In this document: one piece after another, positions 43,341 through 52,962 of the stretch | How the letters are laid out: the number at the start of each line of letters is the position of its first letter | Numbering within the stretch: position 1 is the first letter of the stretch | Source of the DNA: Proteinivorax tanatarense | Lineage (GTDB): Bacteria; Bacillota; Proteinivoracia; Proteinivoracales; Proteinivoracaceae | DNA: 64,000 nucleotides | Reading direction: 5' to 3' | Assembly (NCBI RefSeq): GCF_040267685.1 | Contig: NZ_CP158367.1 | Coordinates: 620,001 to 684,000, forward strand | The notes under the pieces: generated by a model | Told to the model about the DNA's origin: nothing | The model's database searches: none | The model's input: the letters and a program-made list of their open reading frames with translations, nothing else | Translations under genes and position numbers: made by a program

Positions 43341-43961
43341 TTACTTTATCTCTTTTAGGTAATTATAGATACTATATCTTGAAACGTTAAGTTTTTCAGA
43401 AATTACGGGGATGCTTTTTTGAACAGAAAAAACACCTTTTTGGTCTAGGTATTTTACTACTTGAATTCTATCTTTTTTACTCATTAAAGCCACTGGTTTA
43501 CCAATCTTTTTTACTGCCTCATCAAAAGCTTCCTCTAGCATCTGATCACTTATGGATTGCTCTTCGATGACCTCATGGATGTTATCTCCCACATTCAGAA
43601 AATCTTCTAAATTTAATTTTAAATAGGATAAATTAGTGTAATCGTAGTTGATTCCAATAGCAAAATGATAATTTTCATTTTTTACGTGAAAGGTAGAACT
43701 TTTTAAATGTCTGTTGTCTTTGGTGGTAGCGGCACAATTTACTAAATCTGTACCATTAAAAAACTCACTTACATCTTTTTGACCTAAAACTTTAAAAGGA
43801 TCTCCTACTTTTCTATTTGTAACATGACTATTTTTTATGTAAACGATGGACTGTTCAAAATTTTCCATATCATGGACTACTACTTCACAGTTTTTTCCCA
43901 TCATTTGAGTTAGACCATCTGCCAATCTTTTTAAAAAGTTTAAGCACTCCTGTTCATCCAT
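43341..43961 (-). CDS. YheO-like PAS/HTH transcriptional regulator
   Basis: 206 aa. The N-terminal YheO-type PAS-like domain (residues 1-115: LADGLTQMMGKNCEVVVHD, FAIGINYDYT) is followed by a C-terminal DauR-like helix-turn-helix (VSRYSIYNYLKEIK). ATG at 43961 preceded by AAGGAGG. Divergent from the tyrosine phenol-lyase gene, so it likely controls that gene in response to an amino acid or catabolite (inference from position). Confidence 0.82.
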   Translation of the reverse strand: MDEQECLNFLKRLADGLTQMMGKNCEVVVHDMENFEQSIVYIKNSHVTNRKVGDPFKVLGQKDVSEFFNGTDLVNCAATTKDNRHLKSSTFHVKNENYHFAIGINYDYTNLSYLKLNLEDFLNVGDNIHEVIEEQSISDQMLEEAFDEAVKKIGKPVALMSKKDRIQVVKYLDQKGVFSVQKSIPVISEKLNVSRYSIYNYLKEIK

Positions 43962-44060
43962 ACTGCAATTGGCCTCCTTATCTTTTATTCTTATATAATA
44001 ACACAATATTTTTATATAATACAGTCTATTAAACAATTTATATAAAACTTAAACAAACTG

Positions 44061-45513
<1,453 letters not shown>

Positions 45514-45576: not shown

Positions 45577-45841
45577 ATTTGTCATAGTAAGTAATAAGGA
45601 ATTTTGACAGTCCCTAAAGTTGCTGTAGCGGTACAAAAAAACATGGCGTAGAAATAACTTTAAAACCTAAGCTTAGCTTTTAAAGTATATTAATTATAGT
45701 TAAAACTAGCGGTTTCATAAAGCAAGGATGAATCTTATTAATGTTATTTAAGGAACTACTTCCAATTGATAACAATTCCCCACTTATGTCTATAAAAGAT
45801 AAATAATTGATACAAATTACCAACCGCTTGACCTAAATTTC

Positions 45842-45918
45842 GAAATATAAATATATTTCTAAAAAACATTTTAGCCCTGCCATGCATTAAAGTGCACAAA
45901 ATAGTTGCAAATTTGCAA
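45842..45918. promoter_or_regulatory. Two palindromes upstream of the glpF sigma-54 promoter
   Basis: GAAATATA-AA-TATATTTC at 45842-45859 is about 100 bp upstream of the expected start, where enhancer-binding proteins bind. TTGCAAATTTGCAA at 45905-45918 is a perfect 14-bp palindrome ending 12 bp before the -24 box. Roles are inferred from position. Confidence 0.4.
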
Positions 45919-45930
45919 GCTATGAAAAAG

Positions 45931-45947
45931 TTGGCATACTTATTGCA
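45931..45947 (+). promoter_or_regulatory. Sigma-54 (RpoN) promoter of glpFK
   Basis: TTGGCATACTTATTGCA: GG at 45933-45934 and GC at 45945-45946 are exactly the -24/-12 spacing of sigma-54 promoters (TGGCAC-N5-TTGCA), with matching flanks AAAG and CT. No sigma-A promoter of comparable quality is seen in the leader. Confidence 0.7.
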
Positions 45948-46096
45948 CTAATGTTTAGTAGCAAAGTTTACGCTTAACAAATATAAATATACTTTATAGG
46001 TCATAAAAGTGTTGTAAATTTGGACCACTCAAGGAGGTGAATGTAAGATTTTTTTATAAGAATAAAGGAAAAAAATATAAAAGGGGGAATATTTTA

Positions 46097-46930
46097 ATGA
46101 AAGATAACTTAAAAGGAGAACTAATTTCAGAGTTTATAGGTACTTTTATCTTACTATTTTTTGGTGCTGGTTCTGTAGCTACCTTGGTGCTTTTAGGACA
46201 ATCATATAACTTATGGGATATAGCTTTGATATGGGGCCTTGCTGTAACTATGGCTATTTATATCACAGGAGCAGTTTCAGGCACACACATTAATCCAGCT
46301 GTAACCATTGCTCAGGCAATTTTTAGGGGGTTTCCGTGGAAAAAGGTTATTCCTTATATTATAGCTCAAGTAGCTGGGGCATTTGCAGGTGCAGCTGCAG
46401 TTTTCGGGTTGTATAGTAAATCTTTTTTAGAGTTTGAAACTGCTTCAAATATGGTAAGAGGAAGTGCAGAGAGTATATCAACAGCTGGTATCTTCTCAAC
46501 TTACCCACAACCATATTTATCCAATTTTCACGCATTGTTTGTAGAAATTTTAATTACTGCCATGCTTCTAATGGTTATTTTTGCAGTGACTGATGATAAA
46601 AATTCAAATGCACCTAAAGGAAGGTATGCACCATTTGCAGCAGTGTTAATTGGACTAACAATAGCAATAATTGGAGGAGCGTTTGGAGACTTAACAGGTT
46701 TTGCTATGAATCCTGCAAGAGATTTTGGCCCTAAGCTGTTTAAATTTATTGCAGGTTGGGGAGAAGTGGCATTACCAGGTCCGAACGGTTATTTTTGGGT
46801 TCCTATTGTAGGACCGATAATTGGTGGAATTTTAGGTGGATTTTTATATGAAAATGCTGTTGGTAAATTTATAAAGGGGAGCGAAAAGCAAGAAGAAAGT
46901 GTTGTAGAATCTGAAACTAAAGCAATGTAG
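46097..46930 (+). CDS. glpF: Glycerol facilitator (aquaporin family)
   Basis: 277 aa, six membrane spans plus two half-helices with the NPA motifs in HINPAVT and FAMNPARD. The Asp after the second NPAR is typical of glycerol facilitators over water channels. ATG at 46097 chosen: AAGGGGG lies about 8 nt upstream; an in-frame GTG at 46037 touches its RBS. Cotranscribed with glpK, 37 nt downstream, and preceded by a sigma-54 promoter. Confidence 0.93.
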   Translation: MKDNLKGELISEFIGTFILLFFGAGSVATLVLLGQSYNLWDIALIWGLAVTMAIYITGAVSGTHINPAVTIAQAIFRGFPWKKVIPYIIAQVAGAFAGAAAVFGLYSKSFLEFETASNMVRGSAESISTAGIFSTYPQPYLSNFHALFVEILITAMLLMVIFAVTDDKNSNAPKGRYAPFAAVLIGLTIAIIGGAFGDLTGFAMNPARDFGPKLFKFIAGWGEVALPGPNGYFWVPIVGPIIGGILGGFLYENAVGKFIKGSEKQEESVVESETKAM

Positions 46931-46964: not shown

Positions 46965-48470
<1,506 letters not shown>

Positions 48471-51444: not shown

Positions 51445-52962
51445 ATGAAAAGAGTATTGGTCGGAGGAATGTATCATGAATCTAACTCATTTAATCCAAT
51501 TATTACTAAAGAAAAGGACTTTAAAGTGATATATGGCAAAGAGATATTTGAAAGTATTAAGGAAAATGATGCTATCTCAGGTATAATAACTACTTTACAA
51601 GAGGCTGAATGCGAGGTTGTTCCTACAGTTTATGCCAGAGCAGTTCCTAACGGTGAAGTTGACTATGATTTTTATATTAGGATAAAAGATGAAATAATAG
51701 AAAAAGCAAAAAAAGCTGATGCTGAGAAACCGTTGGATGGCATTACTCTTGCTCTTCATGGTTCAATGAGGGTTAAAGAGCTAGGGGAAGCTGAAGGAGA
51801 TATTCTAAAAGAGCTTAGCAGTTTGTTTCCCAATATCCCAATTTATAGTGCCCTTGATATGCATGCAACAATAACAAGTAAAATGCATAACAACTGCAAT
51901 GGTTTTGTAGGGTATAAGTGCGCACCTCACACTGATTGTACCGAAACAGGTATTCAGGCAGCTAAAATGACAATTAAGTCGATAAATAATCAATCTACGG
52001 TAAAGTCATGTTGGGTAAAGATACCGCTAATAATTGCGGGGGAACAGTCTGCTACTGCTGATGAACCTATGGCAGAACTTATAGAAGGGCTAAAAAGAAT
52101 GGAAAAAAAAGCAGGGATACTATCAGCATCTTACTTTATGGGGTTTCCTTGGGCGGACAATAAAGATAATTCCGCTGCTGCTTATGTTGTTGCTGAAAAT
52201 GATGAAAAACTTGCTCAACAAACGGCAGTTCAGCTTGCAGAAAAAATGTGGGAAAAAAGGTATGAGTTTAAGTTCCATACCGAAACATATTCCCAACAAA
52301 AAGCCTTAAATAAGGCTTTTGAGGCTGTGTGTCAAGGAGAAACACCAGTGTATATTTCTGATTCTGGAGATAATCCTACAGCTGGTGCATCTTCCGATTG
52401 CACAGAATTTCTAAAGATTATTCTAGCCGACAAAAGACTGGATAGTTTAGAACGTCCCATAATATATGGAGGATTTTATGATCCAGAAGCCGTAAAGCAG
52501 TGTAAAGGAAAAGTTGGAGAAATAATTGATATTACATTTGGAGCAAAATTTGATGCTACAACCTCCACGCCTATAAATGCAACAGGAACTGTAAAATCGT
52601 ATATCAGTGGTTGGGGTGGGATAACCTTTCCCCAAAGTGATATAGTGCTGTTTAACACTGGAGGAGTAGATGTTATTTTAGCTGAACAACATATAGGGTA
52701 TACGGACCCAAAACTTTATATAGATTTAGGGCTTAATCCTAAAGAGGCTCAGATAATAGTTTGTAAATTGGGGTATCTCACACCTCAGCATGAAGCACTA
52801 GCTAAAAGAAGTATTTTGGCTTTGACTAAAGGAAACACCAACGAAGAACTTAAATCTATAGAGTTTAAAAAAATAGAAAGGCCAATTTTTCCTTTAGATG
52901 AAAAGTTTAATTATAAAGCGGTTGACAATGTGATAAAAAGAGAGAAAGGAAAGAATCAATAA
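51445..52962 (+). CDS. M81 family metallopeptidase (MlrC-like)
   Basis: 505 aa, full length for the MlrC/M81 family (DUF1485 plus MlrC C-terminal domain). Metal-binding style blocks: MYHESNSFNP near the N-terminus, LALHGSM, ALDMHATITSKM, and GYKCAPHTDCTETG. The C-terminal half includes YISDSGDNPTAGASSDCTEF. Relatives degrade cyclic or modified peptides, but the substrate here is unknown. RBS AAGGGAGG. Confidence 0.88.
   Translation: MKRVLVGGMYHESNSFNPIITKEKDFKVIYGKEIFESIKENDAISGIITTLQEAECEVVPTVYARAVPNGEVDYDFYIRIKDEIIEKAKKADAEKPLDGITLALHGSMRVKELGEAEGDILKELSSLFPNIPIYSALDMHATITSKMHNNCNGFVGYKCAPHTDCTETGIQAAKMTIKSINNQSTVKSCWVKIPLIIAGEQSATADEPMAELIEGLKRMEKKAGILSASYFMGFPWADNKDNSAAAYVVAENDEKLAQQTAVQLAEKMWEKRYEFKFHTETYSQQKALNKAFEAVCQGETPVYISDSGDNPTAGASSDCTEFLKIILADKRLDSLERPIIYGGFYDPEAVKQCKGKVGEIIDITFGAKFDATTSTPINATGTVKSYISGWGGITFPQSDIVLFNTGGVDVILAEQHIGYTDPKLYIDLGLNPKEAQIIVCKLGYLTPQHEALAKRSILALTKGNTNEELKSIEFKKIERPIFPLDEKFNYKAVDNVIKREKGKNQ

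Follow-up and report, generated by a model that had tools for sequence, protein, structure and literature searches.

In Bacillus subtilis, glpF-glpK and glpD are controlled by the antiterminator GlpP. Sigma-54 regulons have been reconstructed in 57 Clostridiales, with 39 activator groups as the result (Nie et al. 2019, PMC6615313); glycerol and glpK are absent from the main text of that study, whose closest group is DhaQ with dhaKLM. A sigma-54 regulon survey from 2025 mentions dihydroxyacetone kinase in Clostridia and does not mention glycerol. In Clostridium beijerinckii, a species that may or may not carry the operon described below, dhaKLM is predicted to be sigma-54-controlled and a sigL mutant still grew on glycerol. 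The DhaR protein of E. coli regulates a related three-carbon pathway and is of the activator type; it has no GAFTGA element and depends on sigma-70 (PMC3162934). For sigma-54 control of glp genes, no description of the system presented here was found in the open-licence literature.

The window, i.e., the whole 64,000-nucleotide stretch of DNA that was analysed, contains glpF followed by glpK (Table 1). An earlier note on this DNA had placed a sigma-54 promoter with exact -24/-12 spacing before the two genes, and this was confirmed. The 17-mer TTGGCATACTTATTGCA, located 150 bp 5′ of the glpF ATG, fits the consensus TGGCAYNNNNNTTGCW exactly and has the correct GG-N10-GC spacing. Exact matches to TGGCAYNNNNNTTGCW number 15 in the whole 3.09-Mb genome vs. 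0 for the reversed control, and inspection of all 15 neighbourhoods placed 13 of the boxes directly 5′ of a same-strand gene; the enrichment and this placement indicate that the sigma-54 consensus is meaningful in this genome. Several of the exact boxes adjoin an activator gene. The two intragenic ones are found at C1:2147121 and at window positions 51738-51753 (TGGCATTACTCTTGCT, within the open reading frame 51445-52962), the latter probably being a chance match. rpoN, whose presence the note had left to be verified, is encoded in the genome (PF04552, E 1.6e-57), and at the sequence level the sigma-54 reading of the glpF-glpK promoter is supported. Further upstream, the gene at 44137-45513 resembles tryptophanase or tyrosine phenol-lyase and adjoins a divergent regulator-like gene (43341-44036, minus strand), both names coming from sequence reading only.

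Table 1. Features of the glpF-glpK region; positions are those of the window.
Feature	Position	Strand	Remarks
Distal, weaker predicted activator-binding dyad, TTGATAACAATTCCCCA	45766..45782	+	Rank 15 of 287,659 positions
Proximal, strong predicted activator-binding dyad, TTGATACAAATTACCAA (TTGATA-CAAAT-TACCAA)	45807..45823	+	Joint rank 1 of 287,659
Perfect 8+2+8 palindrome, GAAATATAAATATATTTC	45842..45859	.	1 of 3 such in the 64-kb window; AT-rich
Sigma-54 -24/-12 promoter, TTGGCATACTTATTGCA	45931..45947	+	Exact consensus match; predicted start site ~45958, in agreement with the earlier note
5′ leader predicted for glpF mRNA (139 nt); no terminator hairpin	45958..46096	+	Fold z-score +1.44
glpF, glycerol facilitator, 277 aa, MIP family	46097..46930	+	Pfam PF00230, E 3.4e-59
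glpK, glycerol kinase, 500 aa, FGGY kinase	46968..48470	+	Pfam FGGY_N and FGGY_C

Seventeen activator-domain matches were obtained in the genome, 13 of them strong, and by pattern 12 of these 13 contain GAFTGA or a near variant. Enhancer-binding proteins, the presence of which was likewise to be verified, are thus available (about 13 sigma-54 activators), and the operon context and the sites in common suggest a cognate one. Its gene (G000:C1:2015976-2017373), referred to as EBP below, is the last gene of a second glycerol operon, which occupies C1:2,015,976-2,021,376 on the minus strand in the order glpP (E 7e-66), glpA (DAO plus BFD domains), a glpB-like oxidoreductase gene, DUF1667 and EBP. 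The predicted product comprises PAS, Sigma54_activat (PF00158, E 2e-75, GAFTGA present) and HTH_50 (E 1.3e-10) domains, that is, the AAA+ module with GAFTGA and the C-terminal HTH of a bacterial enhancer-binding protein, and by its GAFTGA element it differs from E. coli DhaR (PMC3162934). A recognition helix, THKTVAxKARKY, is conserved in most glp activators and differs from the helices of the remaining activators in this genome. The glpP gene has a sigma-54 box of its own, TTGGCATAATAATTGCG, 27 bp 5′ of its ATG, and upstream of this box the dyads TTGGTAAATAATATCAA and TTGATACTATTTACCAA.

Pairs of 17-bp dyads of the form TTGRTA-N5-TAYCAA, 32 or 41 bp apart, are present at both the glpF and the glpP promoters, the proximal and distal dyads of glpF being separated by 41 bp. 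The pattern TTGATANNNNTTACCAAC has three exact matches genome-wide, one at glpF and two at the glpP promoter. As it was derived from these two promoters, the test was made with foreign sites. For this, a matrix was built from the dyads of 33 promoters of other genomes or genera only, picked by a consensus that was first seen in this genome, and was scored on 287,659 positions of this genome (stretches totalling ~288 kb, window included). The proximal glpF dyad tied for first place with a glpP dyad. When dyad pairs at 31-33 or 41-43 bp were ranked, glpP came first with 37.6 bits and glpF second with 31.0, the next pair reaching 16.4; such spacings amount to roughly three or four turns of the helix, which also holds for most of the other promoters. 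A dyad with at least 9/12 agreement was found in 18/18 promoters examined vs. a mean of 3.6 and a maximum of 11 after shuffling. An earlier test for a shared half-site (16/18) was weak against shuffles (3.5%), and the foreign-site ranking was used instead. Counting against the assignment are the weakness of the distal glpF dyad and the distance of the glpF dyads from the -24 box, 107 bp vs. 28-62 bp at other promoters.

The AT-rich 8+2+8 palindrome that the earlier note had taken as a possible enhancer site does exist and is perfect, but the genome's second sigma-54 glycerol promoter, that of glpP, lacks it. Given the ranking of the dyads by the foreign matrix and their occurrence at both promoters, the palindrome is probably not the enhancer, and the dyad pair 45766-45823 most likely is. 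It is accordingly improbable that a real sigma-54 promoter at glpF is served by another activator or by the palindrome while the EBP acts on glpP only: the genome does hold about 12 other activators and the palindrome lies nearer to the promoter than the dyads, yet the recognition helices of those activators are different, the glpF and glpP dyads share the top rank, the glpF pair has integral-turn spacing, and glpP does without the palindrome. We consider it more improbable still that a sigma-A promoter accounts for most glpFK transcription, with the sigma-54 box inactive or secondary. One candidate, TTGACC-18-TATATT at 45828-45857, agrees with the sigma-A consensus at 10/12 positions, but such matches are no more frequent here than in shuffled sequences (2 vs. 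3.7), whereas the sigma-54 box is exact, belongs to a rare class of sites and is accompanied by conserved enhancer dyads. That box and dyads are both non-functional chance matches, as the intragenic position of the other exact box of the window might suggest, is hardly credible against the 15 vs. 0 enrichment, the top rank of the dyads under the foreign-site matrix and the recurrence of the arrangement in relatives. The element upstream of glpF is thus, with high confidence, read as a sigma-54 promoter for glpF-glpK that would be driven through the paired dyads by the activator of the glp operon, the EBP being its likely activator.

Folding and a terminator search revealed no terminator hairpin in the glpF leader, and GlpP control of glpF itself was rejected on this ground. 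A known RNA element near glpF was also rejected, as no Rfam match reached the gathering score. Within the leader, at 46031-46046, a start codon with an immediate stop (ATG-TAA) comes after a strong Shine-Dalgarno-like sequence, AAGGAGGTGA; this ATG is separate from the start of glpF itself. The glpA leader, in contrast, contains a strong terminator hairpin (z-score -3.6), which is kept in most relatives, including the sister species. The genome thus has the combination expected for GlpP antitermination, a glpP gene and a terminator in the leader of a glp gene (glpA), and lacks the B. subtilis-type hairpin in the glpF leader. The opposition that the earlier note had drawn between sigma-54 control and the sigma-A/GlpP control of glycerol uptake therefore applies to glpF, with its sigma-54 box and hairpin-free leader, but does not extend to a replacement of GlpP, because glpP is present, has a sigma-54 box and is accompanied by a leader terminator at glpA. 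Compared with B. subtilis, glpP and a terminator hairpin before the glycerol-3-phosphate dehydrogenase gene (here glpA) are shared, while the sigma-54 promoter of glpF, the lack of a terminator in its leader and the apparent status of glpP as a sigma-54 target are different. With a hairpin at glpA and none at glpF, the likely order is that sigma-54 activates glpP and glpFK and that GlpP then acts at glpA, where it would relieve termination ahead of glpA and the gene for the EBP. At L057:10474-10812 (minus strand), a TGAGAAT-AGAG motif precedes the strong glpA terminator hairpin; the motif recurs in family relatives, and the region is a candidate GlpP target RNA.

The glpK product is 79-86% identical to the glpK proteins of family relatives. 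In the sister species, the same locus has the order glpP-glpK-glpA-glpB-DUF1667 with no activator after it; no sigma-54 box was found before its glpP, and a search of that genome for glpF gave no match. In the genome of the window, glpK lies outside the glpP operon and is placed with glpF, yet there too it is accompanied by box and dyads, which suggests that the regulation has accompanied the genes, by relocation or by separate gain. No remnant of glpK was found between glpP and glpA in this genome. The sister species was not accepted as straightforward evidence of promoter decay, since its glpP leader is ~80 bp shorter and aligns poorly; the claim is limited to the absence of a sigma-54 box there.

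In another member of the family (G004), a sigma-54 box is followed by glpK-glpP-glpA-glpB-DUF1667-EBP, and G003 and G002 are similar. When an alignment of the activator was searched against 398 genomes of the phylum, most of the next-best matches were located in glpP-(glpF)-glpK-glpA-glpB-DUF1667-EBP operons with a sigma-54 box at glpP, and some outside glp operons (e.g., G184, G358). Such operons often continue with a second sigma-54 box and dhaKLM, which suggests that the use of glycerol and that of dihydroxyacetone are controlled jointly. A second box before dhaK, after the glp activator, was noted at L188, L202, L192, L197, L195, L203 and L204, all from other families, and both of the relatives' activators that were scanned (L188, L186) have an added PTS-HPr domain. 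The system resembles the Clostridiales regulons, DhaQ-dhaKLM in particular (PMC6615313): catabolic genes are preceded by a -24/-12 promoter and upstream activator sites and have an activator dedicated to them. Some relatives of the activator contain an HPr domain and, like DhaQ, precede dhaKLM and its sigma-54 box. The present system differs in that none of the 39 groups has a glp target and that the present activator lacks HPr and ends a glp operon.

To obtain loci unselected for the activator, 79 named glpP loci were fetched via glpP. Both box and activator were present in 17, the activator alone in 2, the box alone in 1 and neither in 59, giving a Fisher p of 4e-14 for co-occurrence with kinship ignored. 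Alkaliphilus, Geosporobacter, Anaerovirgula, Thermotalea, Anaerosolibacter and Thermoanaerobacter are among the positives. Counting against the reading, one family (f24: G032, G075; L145, L200) has activator and glp operon with a box before dhaK only and none before glpP. At L241:9952 a sigma-54 box precedes a glpP that has neither the activator nor further glp genes nearby. As judged from gene order and motifs, the sigma-54/activator glp circuit recurs across several families. RpoN control of glycerol uptake, which had been called unusual, is so relative to B. subtilis; among anaerobic relatives the arrangement is recurrent in many.

The sequence shows promoter elements, an rpoN gene, an activator gene within a glp operon, paired dyads common to two promoters, and conservation, and from these a mechanism can be proposed. 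The EBP, with its PAS, AAA+ and HTH_50 domains, would bind the paired dyads and loop to RNA polymerase-sigma-54 at the -24/-12 element, and its ATP hydrolysis would open the promoter, turning glpFK on upon sensing of glycerol or a glycerol product. The EBP would also activate glpP. Glycerol-3-phosphate made by GlpK may then load GlpP, which would keep transcription from terminating in the glpA leader and so raise GlpA, GlpB and the EBP itself. Binding, activation, signal, antitermination target and feedback are predicted steps. As a general circuit of many anaerobic Firmicutes-type bacteria, two tiers (EBP acting on glpP and glpFK; GlpP with glycerol-3-phosphate acting on glpA-glpB-DUF1667-EBP) forming a nested positive feedback switch can be suggested tentatively, the odds being slightly against it in our view.

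To the promoter observed earlier, the analysis adds a predicted activator, a likelier enhancer and a wider circuit, that is, a regulon with a defined activator, a predicted binding site and a promoter. It apparently represents a recurrent glp regulon that is new among the sigma-54 regulons described in anaerobic Firmicutes-type bacteria, Thermoanaerobacter included, and it suggests that a single pathway can have sigma-54 control stacked with GlpP antitermination.
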